Below, one piece after another: positions 1 to 7,747 of a DNA stretch of 64,000 nt. The DNA is from Halothece sp. PCC 7418. GTDB lineage: Bacteria; Cyanobacteriota; Cyanobacteriia; Cyanobacteriales; Rubidibacteraceae. A program made the translations under genes and the position numbers. The notes below the pieces were generated by a model. It saw only the letters and a program-made list of their open reading frames with translations, did no database searches and was not told the DNA's origin. The stretch lies in contig NC_019779.1 in the NCBI RefSeq assembly GCF_000317635.1, forward strand, positions 3,782,001 through 3,846,000. The letters are read 5' to 3'. Every line of letters begins with the position of its first letter. Within the stretch, counting starts at the first letter, position 1.

Positions 1-1282
1 TCAAGGTGGGGATTAAGGTAAAGCGGGTGATTTTTTGATTGGTTTGCTTTTGCAGTAAGCAACGGCGGTTTAAGGAGCTAAGTGCTGTCATGACATAAGA
101 TAAATCGTTGATATCAGAAAGATTGTGTTGTATTTCTTTTAAGGTTAATCCTGAATTAGATGCTGCTAGATGAGTCATTACCTGTTTTTCTAAGGGTGAT
201 AAACGTTGGAATTGTTCGGAAAAATAACGAGATAATATTTCACCGATAAAGAGGGGATTTGAGTCTAGTAACTCATCAAAATTACCATCAAATAGGGTTT
301 GGGCTGTTGTCACCAATTCATTAATCGCGATGGGATGACCGGAATAGTCTTGTGTCAATCGAGAAAGTAAGTTTTTATCAGCAATATTAATGCCTTTTTT
401 CGCAAGAATTTCTTTTACTGTCTCGACTGTTAAGCCGTTGAGAGTCATGAAACGAGTGGGTAATTGATCGCCGGCTAGCGTTATTAATTCTAAGGGTGTT
501 TCTCGGCTTAGGAGTAAAATACTACTTTGATGACGGGTTTGAGCCACTTGTTTTAAGAGGTCTCCATAATTTTCATATCCCCCTTGATAATAACTGGCTA
601 GGTTGTTCGCTTGAAAGACACTTTCAAAGTTATCTAGAATGACTAAACAACGAGATGCTCGAAATTCTTCGATTAAGTCTGCAATGAGAGGGGGATGATT
701 ATCATTCGTTTCTATTTCTTGCGAATGACGAAAACAAGCCATGAGATCCCTGAGGAGATTGTCTAAATGGGGAACTCCTCGCAAAGATAAATTGCGCCAA
801 ATCACATAATCATAATTATCAGCAACACTTTCAATAAGACGCACCGCGATCGCGCTTTTGCCAATTCCAGCCATCCCCAATAGCCCCACTAACGGACATC
901 TCTCTTTGATGAGATCGTTTTCTAAAGTTGTCAACTGCATTGTGCGCCCGCAAAACGTTCCCACCACAGGGGCATCTCCCCAGTCAAGATGATCAGTTGT
1001 CTGCTTTTCTGCCTCTTTTTGCAGGTCATTGATCTGTTTTTGATATTCTTCGAGAATGATTTTTTGCAGTTTGGCAAATTTACCAGGTCCTGCACCTTCA
1101 ATCTGAAACTTCTTATAAACCTCACCCAAGCGTTTCTGGAGGGCGTTACGCTGTACGCCTAATCGTTGCGCGATCGCGCTTAGGTCTTCTCCTTCTAAGG
1201 TATCCAGCAACACTTGTAACTCACCCTCTGATACACCTAACCGCTTGGTCAAAGACTTCAAAAATTCTGGGGGAACAACCAT
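1..1282 (-). CDS. NB-ARC/AAA-type ATPase, C-terminus beyond window
   Basis: The frame is open from an ATG at 1282 to the left edge, so only the first 427 residues are visible. Residues 1-60 look like a small helical, HTH-like N-terminal domain. A linker follows, then a phrase typical of cyanobacterial NB-ARC proteins (VGTFCGRTMQLTTLE) and a Walker A GMAGIGKS at about residues 136-143. A Walker B-like CLVILDNFES comes about 90 residues later, followed by a helical winged-helix-like region. In cyanobacteria this arrangement usually precedes WD40 or TPR repeats in large STAND ATPases (vMAP/NB-ARC group), which act in signalling or phage defence. The repeat part would lie left of position 1 and is not seen. 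The gene is divergent from the Uma2 gene at 1422. An 11-bp-spaced GTGAGA motif lies just upstream. Confidence 0.85.
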   Translation of the reverse strand, partial: MVVPPEFLKSLTKRLGVSEGELQVLLDTLEGEDLSAIAQRLGVQRNALQKRLGEVYKKFQIEGAGPGKFAKLQKIILEEYQKQINDLQKEAEKQTTDHLDWGDAPVVGTFCGRTMQLTTLENDLIKERCPLVGLLGMAGIGKSAIAVRLIESVADNYDYVIWRNLSLRGVPHLDNLLRDLMACFRHSQEIETNDNHPPLIADLIEEFRASRCLVILDNFESVFQANNLASYYQGGYENYGDLLKQVAQTRHQSSILLLSRETPLELITLAGDQLPTRFMTLNGLTVETVKEILAKKGINIADKNLLSRLTQDYSGHPIAINELVTTAQTLFDGNFDELLDSNPLFIGEILSRYFSEQFQRLSPLEKQVMTHLAASNSGLTLKEIQHNLSDINDLSYVMTALSSLNRRCLLQKQTNQKITRFTLIPTL

Positions 1283-1421: not shown

Positions 1422-2000
1422 ATGGAAACCGTCTTAAATCTAGAACCCATTGTTAATCTCACCCGAGAGAAATTTTATCAACTGTGTTTGGCTAATCCTG
1501 ATGTTTTGATGGAGCGATCGCCAAAAGGAGAATTAATTACCATGTCCCCAATCGGAGGAGAAGGAGGTCGTCGAGAAGCCTATTTAATCGCTAAGGTTGG
1601 GATGTGGAACGAACAAACTCAGTTAGGAGTGGTGTTCAGTTCTCAGACGATATTTAGCTTGCCAGGTGGAGGCGACCGCGCTCCTGATGTGGCTTGGGTA
1701 GAAAAACAACGCTGGGAAAACTTAACTCAGGAAGCAAGAGAAGGATTTCCGCCCCTTTGTCCAGATTTCATTATCGAGTTGAGATCCCGCAGCGATCGCC
1801 TAAAACCCCTCCGAGAAAAAATGCAAGAATACTTAGCCTCTGGACTGCGGTTAGGGTGGTTAATCAATGCGAACGACGGACAAGTTGAAATTTATCGATC
1901 GCGAACCGAACAAGTGGAGGCGCGATCAATGCCCGCTATTCTTTCAGGAGAGGATATCTTGCCAGGGTTTGAGTTATCTTTAGACCTGAATCAGCTTTAA
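1422..2000 (+). CDS. Uma2 family (DUF820) putative endonuclease
   Basis: 192 residues with the Uma2 layout. There is a PD-(D/E)XK-like core with PDVAWV near the middle, then DFIIELRSRSDRLKPL, in which E-x-R replaces the usual E-V-x-S. The closing phrase LGWLINANDGQVEIYR is typical of the family. Uma2 proteins are very abundant in cyanobacteria. They are predicted nucleases, but their biological role is not established. The gene stands between the divergent NB-ARC gene and a decayed ORF. This is the first of three intact Uma2 genes in the left 9 kb. Confidence 0.85.
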   Translation: METVLNLEPIVNLTREKFYQLCLANPDVLMERSPKGELITMSPIGGEGGRREAYLIAKVGMWNEQTQLGVVFSSQTIFSLPGGGDRAPDVAWVEKQRWENLTQEAREGFPPLCPDFIIELRSRSDRLKPLREKMQEYLASGLRLGWLINANDGQVEIYRSRTEQVEARSMPAILSGEDILPGFELSLDLNQL

Positions 2001-2252: not shown

Positions 2253-2534
2253 GTGATGACAAGAAAAGAAGAGTTAATTCAGGCGATTCAGCAATCCTCA
2301 GATGAATTGGTTTCTCTACTCTGGGAAAGGTTTCAAGAGTTACAACAATCGTCGTCAGAAGCAAACAAAACTCAAGATGACTCAGAAGGCTCGAAGTGTT
2401 CACAACGGTTGCATCGCAAGCAAGGTATTTTGGTGATTAAAACTGGGGCTTCAACTCCATTGGAGATCACAGAATTAGTTAACAAAGTCAGAGAAGAACG
2501 GATTCAAAAGCAGATAGGAGACCTTAATTTGTGA
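2253..2534 (+). CDS. VapB-like antitoxin of a VapBC pair
   Basis: 93 residues. The N-terminus is helical and glutamine-rich (residues 1-45). The C-terminus, with QGILVIKTG and VNKVREERIQKQIGDL, resembles cyanobacterial antitoxins that precede PIN-domain toxins. The stop codon overlaps the GTG start of the following PIN gene (2531), the usual arrangement for translationally coupled antitoxin and toxin. Two consecutive ATG codons (2253, 2256) could start it. Because the downstream toxin is broken, this antitoxin is probably left without its partner. The antitoxin role is inferred from position and style of sequence; the DNA-binding fold is not certain. Confidence 0.65.
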   Translation: MMTRKEELIQAIQQSSDELVSLLWERFQELQQSSSEANKTQDDSEGSKCSQRLHRKQGILVIKTGASTPLEITELVNKVREERIQKQIGDLNL

Positions 2535-3014
2535 GGGTTTTGTACGATACATCTGTTCTAGTCGCTGCCTTATTAGTGGAACATCCCAACCACGATCGTG
2601 CTTTTCCTGAATTAGAGTTAGCAAAACGGGGAGAAGTACAAGGATATCTTTCAACTCACACTTTAGCAGAACTTTATAGATGTCGCCGTAAAACCAAGCG
2701 TCTTTAAGACGTTGGAGCGTCAAGCAGTGATGACACGGTTGCCTCAACCACTGAAAGTTTTACCAGAGGAAGCACAAGCACTGATCACAAACTTAATACA
2801 ATACCTGACCCCTGTATCATTATTATCCGAGGAATATCAGAGTGTCATTGCAAGGATGGTAAAGTTTCAACTAACAGGTGGTGGAATCTTTGATGCGCTC
2901 ATTGCTCAAGCTGCTTTGAAGGTACAAGCGGATTGTTTAATTACCTTGAATCCAAAAGACTTTACTCGATTGGGCGAGGAGGTAGCCACAATTGTCAAAG
3001 TTCCCTCTATGTAG
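2531..3014 (+). pseudogene. VapC-like PIN-domain toxin, interrupted
   Basis: A GTG start overlapping the antitoxin stop opens a PIN domain (VLYDTSVLVAALL with the first acidic residue, then STHTLAELY). The frame then runs into TAA at 2706-2708. The rest of the domain resumes in another frame as AVMTRLPQPLKVLPEEA and continues to FDALIAQAALKVQADCLITL, including the later PIN acidic residue, to a stop at 3012-3014. Removing 2678-2723 (46 bp) joins the two halves as LAELY-AVMTRLPQ in one frame, which is what the family has at this place. The toxin is therefore inactivated by a short insertion. The second half alone could be translated from a TTG at 2712, but it lacks the first catalytic region. 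Confidence 0.8.
2678..2723. repeat. 46-bp palindromic insertion inside vapC
   Basis: The segment contains the palindrome CGTCTTTAAGACG and, overlapping it, GACG-N6-CGTC. Its removal restores the PIN reading frame. It resembles a small palindromic repeat or the footprint of a mobile element. No second copy was noticed in this window. Confidence 0.5.
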
Positions 3015-3035
3015 AATATTTTGTTTTTTAGGGGT

Positions 3036-3058
3036 GATAAGTGAGATTAAAGTGAGAC
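3036..3058 (+). promoter_or_regulatory. GTGAGA direct repeat upstream of the GTPase operon
   Basis: The sequence GATAA followed by GTGAGATTAAAGTGAGAC places two GTGAGA units exactly 11 bp apart, about 140 bp before the first gene of the GTPase unit. It differs from the copy upstream of the NB-ARC gene at three of 18 positions, and in both cases TGATAA precedes it. The two conflict-type loci may therefore share a regulator. This is inference from sequence similarity only. Confidence 0.4.
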
Positions 3059-3197
3059 GCTACAATTCACATAAAAGCTAAAGCATCATTCAGTCATTTT
3101 CTGCTATAGTGAAAGTCAAGGAAAAAAATGCCTTTACTCACAAAATAACAGTCGATTGGCTGGGTGCCTCATCCACTCAACCTTTGGAGAAAAACCC

Positions 3198-3599
3198 ATG
3201 AGTCAGAATTCTTCCCGCCGTCAAAAAGCAGCGAAATGGGCGGGAAAAGCGTCTTTATTCGCAGCAAATCAGTATTTCCAACAGAAGCAACAACAGCCTG
3301 AAACCCCTCAAGATACAGAGAAAACGTTAGATCTCAACATATCGGAAACCCCTCAAGACAAACACGATAAGCTAGATCAACCGTCTCGTCGTCACAAACT
3401 ATGGAAATGGGGAAAGCAAGCCTCTTTATTCGCAGCAAGTGAGTATCTTCGTCGAGATCATCCGCAAGGATCTGAACCGAAAAAGCCCACACTTCTCGAA
3501 ACCTTCTTAGAAATTATCAAAGTCAGCGTCTATGCAATCTGCGCGATCGCGCTGACTATTTTATTATTAACCCTTCGCTTTGGCTATGGTGTCCATTAA
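3198..3599 (+). CDS. Small membrane protein with duplicated basic/aromatic motif
   Basis: 133 residues from the ATG at 3198, which has GGAGAAAA just upstream; an in-frame start at 3156 lacks a ribosome binding site. The sequence carries the motif RRxKxxKWxxxASLFAAxxY twice, at residues 7-26 and 64-83, with 12 of 21 positions identical. A polar linker between the copies has ETPQD twice. Residues 104-126 form one hydrophobic helix, and the C-terminus is short. I do not recognise the family. It is 42 bp upstream of the first dynamin-like GTPase and most likely co-transcribed, so it may act as a membrane anchor or partner for the GTPases. That role is inference. The tandem motif could be an amphipathic membrane-binding or GTPase-binding element. 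Confidence 0.75.
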   Translation: MSQNSSRRQKAAKWAGKASLFAANQYFQQKQQQPETPQDTEKTLDLNISETPQDKHDKLDQPSRRHKLWKWGKQASLFAASEYLRRDHPQGSEPKKPTLLETFLEIIKVSVYAICAIALTILLLTLRFGYGVH

Positions 3600-3641
3600 A
3601 TTTTTCTAATCAATCTATCATCAACTAGGAGTAAGAACACA

Positions 3642-5636
3642 ATGTCCTCTAATAACAATCAACACAACGACACTTCACATCAAACAACACGACTAGTAAA
3701 TCGCTTATGGAATGATCCTAAATATCAAAAAGCAATTAAACAAATCAGACAAATTTCTCAGGAAGATTACCCGTTTACGAAAGAAGCACTGGAAACAACA
3801 AAGTCTAATCTCAATGAGCTAGAGAGTAAACTCAGCCAAGAAATAGCAAATATTAAAGCAACAACTCAGGGAAAAGCGAAAGCAGAAACAGCTAAAGAAG
3901 TTACTACCCAATTAGAGGAAACTAAACAAGATTTAGACCAAAAAATTAAAACACAAATTAAAACTGTTCACGAAGCATTGGAAGCAAAAAAGAGTAGTTT
4001 GGATTACTTTACGATTGCATTCATGGGAAAAACCAAAGCTGGAAAAAGTACGCTACATTCAATTTTAGCTGGACAAGGATGGGATAGCATTGGTGTTGGG
4101 AAACAACGCACGACTCGCTCCAATCGCTTCTATACATGGAATAACATCCGCATTATTGATACGCCTGGAATTGGTGCGCCAGACGGAAAAAGCGATGAAG
4201 AAACTGCGGAAAGTATTATTAACGAAGCCGATCTGATTGTTTTTGTTGTCACTAACGACAGCCAACAAGAAATTGAGTTTGAGAAACTGAAACTCTTAAG
4301 AGAGAAAGCCAAACCACTTTGTATTTTAATCAACGTTTTGAAGAACTTTAATGATCCGTGTCGAGGAGACTTTGAATTAAAGCGGTTTCTGAAAAATCCT
4401 GAAAAGCTATTTAATGATCAAGAAATGCAGGGTCATTTTAACCGCATTCAAGGTTATGCTCAAAAATATTATGGAAATGATTATTTCTCTATTATTCCTG
4501 TTATGTTCTTAGCTGCACAACTCTCTTATCAAGAGCAACATCAGCAACATAAAGACCAACTTTGGGAAGCCAGTCGAATTGAGAATTTTTTAGAGCAAAT
4601 TCGCTTATCTATTGTCGAACAAGGAACAATTCGCCGTTCTCAAAACTTACTGGGAAGTACAGCTAAACCAATTAAAGATGCTTCCTTGTGGGCGCAAAAG
4701 CAAGCAACTTTTTATCACAAACTCGCTCAAGCAATTAGAGAAAAGCCCAGTAAAGTTGATCGAGAGATTGATCGAGCAATGCAAGAGGTTGAGAAAAACT
4801 TAAAAAATGAAATTGCCAAAGTATTCAAAGAACTTAAGAATAGTGTCTCTCAATTTGCTGAATTTCATTGGAATAGTTCAGAAGAAACACTTAACCGAGC
4901 ATGGAAAAGCAAACTGAAACAAGGAAAGTATGAAGAGAAATTAAATAACTTTAGTGAAAAACAATGGAATAACTTTACTAAAAAAGTACAGCAATTACTA
5001 GAAGAGATTGGAAAAGATTTACAGTTTTCTGCAAAGCTAGGCGGAATATCGGGATTTAAGCTCAATCAGCAAGATACATCAGATAATAAAAACTTGTTTC
5101 GATTTGGTGGCGGTTTTTTAGCTATTGGTCTTCTTATACCTGTACCTGGTGTGCAAATTATAGGAATTGCAGGATTAGTCATGAATCTTGTGGCTAACTT
5201 GTTTGAATCAAAAGCAGATAAAAGACGTAAAGCAGTTCAAAAAATTAGTCAGTCATTAAAACAGCAAATTAATCAACAGGAATCACAAGTTACAAATCAA
5301 GTAACCGCAGAATTTCGCAAAAACTGTAACCAAGTTAAGACAGAAATTACAACCTATCTTCATCAACTCATATCTGGTTTAGATGCTATTTCTAAAGAGA
5401 TCAAGACATCTGAACAGAATTTAGAAGCATCAGTTAATTTACTAAACTTGGCTTATGGAAAACGCATCATTGATTGGAGTCAAAAACGTTACGAACCTCT
5501 CACTCAAGATGAAATTAATCGTGAAGTAGTGAGCGTGAAACGAGACATTGGTAAAAAGATTATGATTGAAGTTAAAAATCAGTTGACTATTACTCGCTCT
5601 CAAGAGGAACTAGATTCAATTAAACCTCTTGCATAA
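3642..5636 (+). CDS. Dynamin-like GTPase, first of a pair
   Basis: 664 residues. Residues 1-120 are charged and coiled-coil-like. The GTPase core follows, with G1 GKTKAGKST (129-137), G3 DTPG (173-176) and a weak G4, NVLK (231-234), where NKxD is expected. A helical stalk follows, then a hydrophobic stretch around residues 485-520 (FLAIGLLIPVPGVQIIGIAG), which could insert in a membrane, and a C-terminal coiled coil. This order (GTPase, helical bundle, membrane-inserting paddle, helical return) is that of bacterial dynamin-like proteins such as LeoA. AGGAG lies 10 bp before the start. It sits between a small membrane protein and a second GTPase in one orientation. Paired dynamins usually work as hetero-oligomers; a defence or membrane-repair role is inference. 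Confidence 0.8.
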   Translation: MSSNNNQHNDTSHQTTRLVNRLWNDPKYQKAIKQIRQISQEDYPFTKEALETTKSNLNELESKLSQEIANIKATTQGKAKAETAKEVTTQLEETKQDLDQKIKTQIKTVHEALEAKKSSLDYFTIAFMGKTKAGKSTLHSILAGQGWDSIGVGKQRTTRSNRFYTWNNIRIIDTPGIGAPDGKSDEETAESIINEADLIVFVVTNDSQQEIEFEKLKLLREKAKPLCILINVLKNFNDPCRGDFELKRFLKNPEKLFNDQEMQGHFNRIQGYAQKYYGNDYFSIIPVMFLAAQLSYQEQHQQHKDQLWEASRIENFLEQIRLSIVEQGTIRRSQNLLGSTAKPIKDASLWAQKQATFYHKLAQAIREKPSKVDREIDRAMQEVEKNLKNEIAKVFKELKNSVSQFAEFHWNSSEETLNRAWKSKLKQGKYEEKLNNFSEKQWNNFTKKVQQLLEEIGKDLQFSAKLGGISGFKLNQQDTSDNKNLFRFGGGFLAIGLLIPVPGVQIIGIAGLVMNLVANLFESKADKRRKAVQKISQSLKQQINQQESQVTNQVTAEFRKNCNQVKTEITTYLHQLISGLDAISKEIKTSEQNLEASVNLLNLAYGKRIIDWSQKRYEPLTQDEINREVVSVKRDIGKKIMIEVKNQLTITRSQEELDSIKPLA

Positions 5637-5724
5637 ATACGGAATTTCGTGATTTCAAAGATTACTATAAAAACTTTAGCAACTAGCTTTTCGAGAAAAT
5701 ATTACCAATTATAAAAATAAAGCC

Positions 5725-7479
5725 ATGAATACTCATCCTAATCAAAATTCTGAAGTTACAGCTAACAAAATCAGCCAACTGTTTCAAGCTAACCTGAATC
5801 AATTTGAACAATTTCTATCTAGTCAAGACAATGAGCAAATCAAAGCTATTCAACAAGAGTTACGTCAAAATTTAGATCAATACTATGAAAATGGAATTCT
5901 GACCATTGCCTTTATCGGACAATATAGCGCAGGAAAATCTACCATTATTTCTGCTTTAACTGGAAGACGAGACATTTACATCGACGCAGATATCGCCACT
6001 GATACTACTACTTCCTATGATTGGAATGGCATTAAAATCATTGACACCCCTGGACTTTATACAGATCGAACCGATCATGATCAAATCACTTACGATGCAA
6101 TTGAAAAAGCAGATTTACTGATATTCTGTTTAACCAGTATGCTGCTTGACAATATCACAGCCGATAATTTCAAAAAACTTGCCTATGATCAAGGCTATGC
6201 TTGGAAAATGATGTTAGTGATTAACAAAATGTCCCAGGCTTCAGGAGACGAACAGGAGTTAATTACGAATTATAAGGATAGCCTCGCTAAAGGTTTAGCC
6301 CCTTATTCTCTCGATGCGTTTCCACTCTTGTTTATTGATGCAAAAGATTACTGTGAAGGAATTGATGAAAACGAAGAATTTTTAGTTGAAGTTAGTCGCT
6401 TTCCTGAATTTATTGAACAATTAAACGATTTCATTAAGCAACGAGAAATCATGGCTCGTCTCGATACACCTGTTCGCATTGCACTTTCGAGTTTGAATAA
6501 AACTGAATCAGCAATACAACGCGATGATGATGAAGATAGTGCTTATTTAGAGTTGGTTAATCGTTGTGCAATTAAAGTAGAAAAAGAAAGAACTCGTTTT
6601 CGCACTGATATAGAAAAAATTGCGCTTGACCTCTACTCAGAAGTGAGACAAGAAGCTAACCCTTTACTGGATAGCCTAGGGAATATTGAAAGTGAACAAG
6701 AATGGAATCAGTTAAGTCGTAAAGCAGATCAGAATATAGAAAAACACTGTCAATCAGCACAGGAAAAATTAGAGAAAGTGGCTAATCAAGCACAGGTTTC
6801 TCTTATGGAATCTCTGGAAGATATTTTACAAGGTAACTTAGCACAAACCTTAATTCAACGCCTAGAAAATAATGATCAAGTAGCAGCTAAACAAGCTGAC
6901 CAGAATAGTTCGCAATGGAAAAGCAAACTTAACAAACTTCTGCAATTGGGTGATTTTGTCAGTGGTACATTATCAAATGCTGCAAAAAATGCAACACCAT
7001 TAGTGGGTGCGAATGGTTTTCTTAAAGCTAGTAACGTCGCTGGTAGTGGTCTTCATCAGGGAGTTTACCAAATCGGAAAATTGTTAGGGGTTAATTTCAA
7101 ACCTTGGGGTGCAGTTAACTTGGCTAAGAATGCGGGTAATGTTGCTAAAGCTGCTGGACCTGTTTTAGCGATTGGTGCATTCGTATTGGATATAATGAAC
7201 AGTAATGAAGAAGAAAAACAAAGTGAAGAATTATCTCAAGCTCGTAAAGAAATTAACAGTGACTTTCAAGATATGGCTCAACAATTACAAACCCAATTTG
7301 AAAGTATAGGGCGAGAAGTGGAACAACAAATCTACGATGAGACAGCAGAAAAAATTGAACAAATGCGAGAAGCTCACTATCAAAACATTGGTCAAAATCA
7401 GGAACATATGCAACAATTGAATAGTTTACGCCAAGAGTTTAAAGTGGTTCTTTCTGAAATTGATCAGTCATTTCATTAA
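5725..7479 (+). CDS. Dynamin-like GTPase, second of a pair
   Basis: 584 residues. A helical N-terminus of about 55 residues is followed by G1 GQYSAGKST (65-73), a threonine-rich switch region (DTTTSYDW), G3 DTPG (107-110) and a canonical-looking G4, NKMS (167-170). A long helical region follows. A glycine/alanine-rich weakly hydrophobic stretch (GNVAKAAGPVLAIGAFVLDI) lies near residues 470-490, and the C-terminal coiled coil is rich in Q and E. The overall plan matches the upstream GTPase, but the sequence is clearly different, so this is not a recent duplication. It starts 88 bp after the first GTPase with no terminator visible, so an operon is likely. Exact partners and substrate membrane are unknown. 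Confidence 0.8.
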   Translation: MNTHPNQNSEVTANKISQLFQANLNQFEQFLSSQDNEQIKAIQQELRQNLDQYYENGILTIAFIGQYSAGKSTIISALTGRRDIYIDADIATDTTTSYDWNGIKIIDTPGLYTDRTDHDQITYDAIEKADLLIFCLTSMLLDNITADNFKKLAYDQGYAWKMMLVINKMSQASGDEQELITNYKDSLAKGLAPYSLDAFPLLFIDAKDYCEGIDENEEFLVEVSRFPEFIEQLNDFIKQREIMARLDTPVRIALSSLNKTESAIQRDDDEDSAYLELVNRCAIKVEKERTRFRTDIEKIALDLYSEVRQEANPLLDSLGNIESEQEWNQLSRKADQNIEKHCQSAQEKLEKVANQAQVSLMESLEDILQGNLAQTLIQRLENNDQVAAKQADQNSSQWKSKLNKLLQLGDFVSGTLSNAAKNATPLVGANGFLKASNVAGSGLHQGVYQIGKLLGVNFKPWGAVNLAKNAGNVAKAAGPVLAIGAFVLDIMNSNEEEKQSEELSQARKEINSDFQDMAQQLQTQFESIGREVEQQIYDETAEKIEQMREAHYQNIGQNQEHMQQLNSLRQEFKVVLSEIDQSFH

Positions 7480-7599
7480 CAATTGACCCAGCCAATCAGA
7501 TATTTTTTTAAACCTCCCTTACCAAGATAGGGTCGTTTCATTCTATTTTTTGTCCGTTCGGTTATGTTACACCACTTCTAACCAACAAGCACTACGTTG

Positions 7600-7622
7600 T
7601 AGGGTGGGCAATGCCTACCCTA
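7600..7622. repeat. Perfect short palindromic repeat
   Basis: Arms TAGGGTGGGCA and a near-complement (GCCTACCCTA) form a hairpin between the GTPase operon and the next gene. Repeats of this TAGGGTGGGC type are common in cyanobacterial intergenic DNA. It could end transcription of the GTPase unit, though no long T-run follows. The remainder of 7480-7747 shows no gene. Confidence 0.5.
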
Positions 7623-7747
7623 TTTTCTTTAATTACGTTAACAAATGATTCTGAGTAACAACTGAAAATTGAAAGCCGAAAGAAGCGCGATCGCGCTCTT
7701 GTTAAGCTAAAGTTGGCAGCGATCAACGCGATAGGAGGCTAAGGATA

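Follow-up and report, generated by a model that had tools for sequence, protein, structure and literature searches.

A Gene for a Predicted Tail-Anchored Protein Precedes an Eleos-Type LeoBC–LeoA Dynamin Pair in Halothece sp. PCC 7418

Analysis of a 64,000-nucleotide stretch of DNA of Halothece sp. PCC 7418, hereafter the window (positions 3782001–3846000 of one contig of 4,179,170 bases), showed the presence of adjacent genes for two dynamin-like GTPases, LeoBC and LeoA, preceded by a small gene whose product has a predicted tail-anchored layout. The GTPases are a LeoBC–LeoA pair of the Eleos kind, which is already known, and do not represent a new system. New here is the extra gene for a predicted tail-anchored protein before the Eleos pair, an arrangement that recurs and merits testing. 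We put at about an even chance the reading that the locus encodes a heterotypic dynamin pair for membrane tethering or fusion, to which a tail-anchored docking subunit is optionally added.

Organization of the Locus

Three open reading frames of 133, 664 and 584 amino acids, all on the plus strand and separated by gaps of 42 and 88 bp, occupy positions 3198–7479. They encode the predicted small tail-anchored protein (3198–3599), in which two basic, aromatic helix repeats precede a C-terminal membrane helix; the LeoBC-type dynamin-like GTPase (3642–5636), from which the N-terminal TerB domain is absent; and the LeoA-type dynamin-like GTPase (5725–7479). The small frame begins with ATG at 3198, and a longer frame from TTG at 3156 is also possible. 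The P-loops GKTKAGKST and GQYSAGKST, given for the two GTPases in the original prediction, are both present, and its description of three genes in one orientation without terminators holds as well: no plus-strand terminator-like site is listed in 3198–7479, the sole plus-strand site being at 7599–7623, in a scan that says little, with four sites over both strands versus a mean of 3.3 in shuffles.

The order NB-ARC, Uma2, small gene, LeoBC and LeoA is common to the window and to locus L034 of the genome G150, and the outer genes differ. The gene of the NB-ARC (STAND) protein (2–1282, minus strand), the open reading frame of which ends just beyond the window, bounds the shared block on the left and is 63% identical in L034; its relative there (L034:5114–6421) has no PADLOC match at E ≤ 0.001. 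The Uma2 gene (1422–2000, plus strand) lies upstream of the small gene in both genomes and is about 90% identical in L034. The small gene itself is preceded by leader DNA (3025–3197, plus strand), conserved in the window and G150.

Two minor features were observed in this upstream part. Between the Uma2 gene and the small gene, at 2253–3014, there is a gene pair resembling a VapBC-type toxin–antitoxin module; its PIN-like frame is apparently interrupted, with a weak PIN match (E 0.083), and a counterpart of the pair is absent from L034. The leader, at 3037–3197, carries a short direct repeat (agtgagattaaagtgaga), a possible operator 5' of the small gene.

Other neighbours in the window include three Uma2 genes in total, a HicB-like gene, weak PIN matches (E 0.083) and the NB-ARC gene. 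The earlier description of the surroundings as an island rich in conflict genes is thus only in part correct, since the genes from 9791 onward, which we take to be recX, rseP and nth, keep their order across other genomes of the genus.

Identity and Predicted Fold of the GTPases

Full-length PADLOC matches were obtained for both GTPases, namely PDLC03841 for LeoBC (1.9e-102; residues 45–607, profile positions 17–593 of 601) and PDLC03839 for LeoA (1.4e-116; profile positions 7–556 of 559), which bears out the earlier assignment to a LeoA-type (Eleos) dynamin pair. LeoA also matches Pfam DLP_helical (3.5e-11) and, among PDB entries, the crystal structure of E. coli LeoA, 4aur (8.4e-13). Pfam MMR_HSR1 matches both LeoBC and LeoA, and Dynamin_N is above the cut-off for LeoA (32.3 vs. 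27) and below it for LeoBC (23.4). Within the window genome, the LeoBC profile scores 341.5 bits at this locus, 117.6 bits at LeoA and at most 55.5 bits elsewhere.

The architecture of bacterial dynamin-like proteins was found, with a G domain carrying the P-loop and DTPG, a helical stalk and a membrane tip, the last modelled with low confidence. This hydrophobic tip, a putative membrane paddle, corresponds to about residues 468–520 of LeoBC (5043–5201, plus strand); its sequence is hydrophobic, and the pLDDT is below 50 at residues 468–500 and 510–520.

The AF2 model of LeoBC, built from 63 sequences with a mean pLDDT of 82.9, came closest to mitofusin 1 (Z 20.9, rmsd 4.0, 322 residues), Fzo1 (Z 18.4, rmsd 3.7, 293 residues) and BDLP (Z 16.3, rmsd 34.4, 476 residues). 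The top Foldseek matches were BDLP, LeoA, IniA, mitofusin 1 and the Campylobacter pair, with low TM-scores (0.15–0.38 for the dynamin matches when normalized by query length), as is expected of hinged molecules in different conformations. With such TM-scores and the large rmsd to BDLP, the match of the LeoBC model to dynamins is one of predicted fold class and not of conformation. Accordingly, the families of both proteins and the fold matches of LeoBC identify LeoBC–LeoA as a fusion/tethering-type dynamin pair of the Eleos kind.

Pairing of LeoBC and LeoA in Other Genomes

LeoBC is carried by 62 of the 388 genomes of the order sample (66 matches at E ≤ 1e-30). Sixty regions of this order sample were fetched, with weak matches in G637, G555, G363 and G526 left out, and the window was read directly. 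A second, overlapping set of named loci comprised the best 80 of 91 relatives and adds Bacillus, Treponema, Lachnospiraceae, Bacteroidota and Marinobacter. Pairing was counted with our own profiles at assessable loci, namely those where 2.5 kb or more of downstream sequence was present and the LeoBC match extended to profile position 560. LeoA immediately follows LeoBC in the same orientation at all 44 assessable order-sample loci, the window included, and at 54 of the 56 assessable named loci.

LeoBC and LeoA form a single open frame at three of the 44 loci (L034, L035 and L044) and at none of the 56. An ATG stands at the beginning of the LeoA part of the fused frame in L034, and therefore a separate LeoA product could also be made there. 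The second pair of G150 (L035) is one frame of 1711 amino acids, with upstream TPR-like repeats and an apparent TerB remnant. Concerning mobile elements, LeoBC was found in four plasmid records at E ≤ 1e-20 and was absent from phage records at 1e-10.

Sequence and Occurrence of the Small Protein

The small protein has a single hydrophobic stretch, the best 19-residue window of which, residues 106–124 (mean KD 2.49), is the predicted membrane helix (3513–3569, plus strand), followed by nine residues. Ahead of it, two copies of a repeat are encoded on the plus strand at 3213–3311 (residues 6–38) and 3384–3482 (residues 63–95); 15 of 33 positions are identical, and the ungapped BLOSUM62 score of 76 was reached by none of 2000 shuffles, the maximum of which was 44. 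The duplicated motif in a single-pass protein, noticed at the outset, is thus real. Residues 1–98 contain 18 basic and 11 acidic residues. Helices at 4–31, 64–86 and 99–131 were obtained by AF2 from the single sequence (mean pLDDT 69.2, pTM 0.25), and the predicted layout is that of a tail-anchored protein with two repeat helices and a long C-terminal helix.

The small protein matches no family of Pfam or PADLOC at E ≤ 1, and one NCBIfam match, at 0.023, is far under its cut-off. Neither a small partner of LeoBC nor a TerB–LeoBC fusion is the subject of any paper among the open-licence literature matches listed, in line with the original view of the small partner as undescribed. The gene is under constraint, with 76% identity to the G150 ortholog, dN 0.14 and dS 0.33.

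The protein was found in two of 388 class genomes (E ≤ 0.001), both of one genus, each time directly before LeoBC. A two-row model gave five of 388 genomes in the order sample at E ≤ 0.05, of which the two strong ones (5.0e-87 and 5.5e-85) are those of the class sample and three lie at 0.011–0.024. In the family sample, four of nine genomes matched at E ≤ 10, two of them strongly, and the same two have LeoBC. Relatives of the small protein are absent from the plasmids, phages and viral contigs searched, and none was found in genome contigs by short exact patterns, which reach close relatives only. At the LeoBC loci, the protein occurs only in the window and L034 among the 60 order-sample regions plus the window, and in none of the 80 named loci; it is also absent from the second LeoBC–LeoA pair of G150.

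Whether the small protein always stands next to the GTPase pair was the check proposed at the outset. It stands by a pair in two of two genomes, these two being the extent of its co-occurrence with LeoBC, and the other pairs examined are without it. The small protein as a general component of LeoBC–LeoA pairs is not supported, strong matches being found in two of 388 order genomes versus 62 of 388 for LeoBC. A widespread small-protein family was likewise considered and rejected on the counts above.

Predicted Membrane-Anchored Neighbours of LeoBC in Other Phyla

Among 126 LeoBC loci, drawn from two overlapping sets, eight were found to have a small membrane ORF whose end lies at most 300 bp upstream of LeoBC: the window, L034, L056, L161, L157, L158, L165 and L170. 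The ORF in L056 lies 247 bp from LeoBC and is probably unrelated. Among the 60 order-sample regions, a tail-anchored gene directly before LeoBC was found only in L034.

The loci L157, L158, L165 and L170 belong to Bacteroidota and encode coiled-coil-like proteins bearing a membrane helix at the C-terminus, the genes of which end from 4 bp before to 3 bp inside the LeoBC start. The four proteins are related to one another; the window small protein, present in the phmmer target set, was not among the listed matches of L157 or L158. The Bacteroidota protein is present as a single copy, at the LeoBC start, in four of ten genomes taken for LeoBC, the search model having been built from the same four positive genomes; ten of 11 Bacteroidota LeoBC loci were used, and L154, truncated by the contig start, was left out. 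Among 295 genomes from the order of G717, not selected for LeoBC, the protein was found in G717 only. A fixed tail-anchor rule selected 0 of 282 ORFs in control regions, which are cyanobacterial and not from Bacteroidota, and 5 of 152 ORFs in the 11 Bacteroidota LeoBC loci, four of the five being the proteins of L157, L158, L165 and L170.

In Lachnospiraceae, the loci L155, L161 and L164 contain an ORF, lipoprotein-like by our reading, that ends 19–65 bp before LeoBC, a further type of membrane-anchored neighbour.

A general rule could be drawn from these arrangements, and we hold it tentatively, with more doubt than confidence: LeoBC–LeoA pairs may rely on specialized tail-anchored docking proteins, the genes of which lie immediately upstream of LeoBC and arose independently in two or more phyla (this cyanobacterial genus and Bacteroidota), as bacterial counterparts of mitochondrial dynamin receptors.

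Mosaic History of the Locus

Comparison of the window with G150 showed that Uma2 and the small gene are the unusually alike genes, with dS of 0.32–0.33 versus 0.94–0.99 for LeoBC and LeoA, and therefore the leader and the GTPases do not share one common recent history. The dS values of the NB-ARC, rseP and nth genes are 1.68, 1.13 and 1.76, respectively. Unusually fast divergence of the GTPases was rejected as an explanation, as the dS of LeoBC and LeoA is near that of rseP. High DNA identity extends over the leader and the small gene (blastn block 3025–3662, 84.7%; 81–85% in sliding windows), dips to 70–75% between the repeats and ends about 20 bases into LeoBC, at the site of the TerB domain missing from the window LeoBC. 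From this one genome pair, it appears that the leader segment was recombined in front of resident LeoBC–LeoA genes.

A rival explanation is an ordinary Eleos pair in front of which an unrelated small gene of the Uma2/leader block came to lie by recombination, with no functional tie to the GTPases. Both the dS difference and the stop of the high-identity block at about 3662 favour this explanation, as do the other examined pairs, which are without the small gene. However, the 42-bp spacing on the same strand is kept in two genomes with different wider flanks, the seven of nine family genomes without LeoBC have no strong small-protein match, and a parallel tail-anchored arrangement exists in Bacteroidota. 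We regard an unrelated gene as possible but rather unlikely.

Proposed Mechanism and Comparison with Known Systems

The simplest reading of the locus would be an Eleos machine whose anchor is a protein of its own, of the tail-anchored type. LeoBC and LeoA would most likely form hetero-oligomers that bridge, remodel or reseal membrane via GTP hydrolysis, as the Campylobacter pair Cj-DLP1/2 has been shown to do. The small protein would be anchored by its C-terminal helix in a membrane facing the cytoplasm. Its two basic, aromatic helices would then project into the cytosol and may retain or recruit the GTPases there or mark the target membrane. We infer the mutual binding of the three proteins, the docking on the small protein and a stress or phage context.

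Eleos (LeoA plus LeoBC) has the same full-length matches and the same order, LeoBC then LeoA; in contrast to it, the window adds a tail-anchored gene in front, and its LeoBC is without the TerB domain of most relatives. According to Michie and others (PMC4159319), LeoA of ETEC LeoABC is proposed to act as a heterodimer with LeoBC, and the terminal hydrophobic insert of E. coli LeoC would tether the GTPase side to the membrane. The location of LeoA downstream of a second dynamin is common to both loci, whereas LeoBC of ETEC is split into two ORFs and has its own anchor, and the window has a single ORF of 664 amino acids and a proposed separate anchor.

The Campylobacter proteins Cj-DLP1 and Cj-DLP2, likewise a side-by-side dynamin pair, form a 2:2 heterotypic tetramer that tethers membranes (PMC6104087). 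Tandem dynamins are also found in cyanobacteria, namely the Tandem A/B dynamins with NosDLP/BDLP1, and in the cyanobacterial KGK clade small proteins of around 120 amino acids are encoded beside a dynamin (PMC5827413). The KGK partner is described there as downstream of the dynamin, whereas the window small protein is encoded upstream and has no KGK match in the Pfam scan. In relation to NosDLP/BDLP1 of Tandem B, BDLP1 (2j68/2j69) has no sequence match to either GTPase at E ≤ 1, and the similarity of the LeoBC model to it (Z 16.3) is one of fold.

Mff and Fis1 are small tail-anchored receptors that recruit dynamin to the mitochondrial membrane. The small protein of the locus has a similar predicted tail-anchored build and may likewise recruit its GTPases.

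The proposed arrangement bears on the membrane targeting and the trigger of paired bacterial dynamins, for which the separate anchor would be a possible receptor and TerB a possible sensor; the anchor protein differs between lineages, and TerB is usually, not always, fused to LeoBC. In cyanobacteria, which have thylakoids as well as a plasma membrane, a docking protein could decide which membrane is served.

Defence Context

A defence role of the pair is plausible by family, Eleos being classed by PADLOC among defence systems. Millman and others reportedly described, in 2022, protection against phage by Eleos. The Uma2, HicB-like and NB-ARC neighbours of the window are suggestive only as a pointer to defence. 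In B. subtilis, as a review notes, lysis of phage-infected cells is delayed by DynA (PMC9950537).

The neighbourhoods of 20 LeoBC loci were compared with control regions of the same 20 genomes, using ORFs of 120–900 amino acids, up to seven per locus, with one control ORF dropped. An excess of defence genes around LeoBC loci was not indicated: in this rough test, 26 PADLOC models at E ≤ 1e-20 were counted among 138 neighbour ORFs versus 113 among 139 control ORFs, counts that refer to models (the first 25 shown) and not to distinct proteins, one of which can match dozens. Such models are often redundant, and the figures therefore overstate the difference; we take from them no more than the lack of a sign of enrichment.

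It is unlikely that the locus is an abortive-infection module, with the small protein as an effector harming the cell's own membrane upon phage entry and the GTPases restraining or delivering it. The single membrane helix preceded by basic helices and the listing of Eleos in PADLOC are compatible with it, but an effector without any family match (Pfam and PADLOC, E ≤ 1), pairs without the small protein as the rule, and LeoBC neighbourhoods without a sign of defence-gene excess all argue against it.

TerB Domain of LeoBC

Most relatives have a longer LeoBC ORF, extended by some 130–210 residues at the N-terminus. Pfam TerB was above the cut-off in six of nine such N-termini, just below it in two and absent from one. 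With a TerB profile made from cyanobacterial copies, the domain was found within the LeoBC ORF at 41 of 54 assessable order-sample loci, the window included, and at 52 of 66 assessable named loci; these counts are lower bounds, because L160 passes Pfam but not our own profile. TerB is absent from the window LeoBC and present in the G150 LeoBC behind the orthologous small gene, and further copies without TerB include L035, L037 and L076. TerB proteins occur elsewhere in the window genome (G000), none at the LeoBC locus.

That the small protein replaces a lost TerB domain, as the TerB-less window LeoBC and the position of the gap at the end of the conserved leader block might suggest, is highly improbable: G150 has the small protein together with a TerB-bearing LeoBC, which already weakens the idea, and at the TerB-less loci L076/L146 and L037/L099 no small membrane ORF ends in the 300 bp before LeoBC.

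In a divergent cyanobacterial LeoBC relative, L085:7318–7998, TerB is replaced by an extra small GTPase domain at the N-terminus (MMR_HSR1, 2.2e-13).
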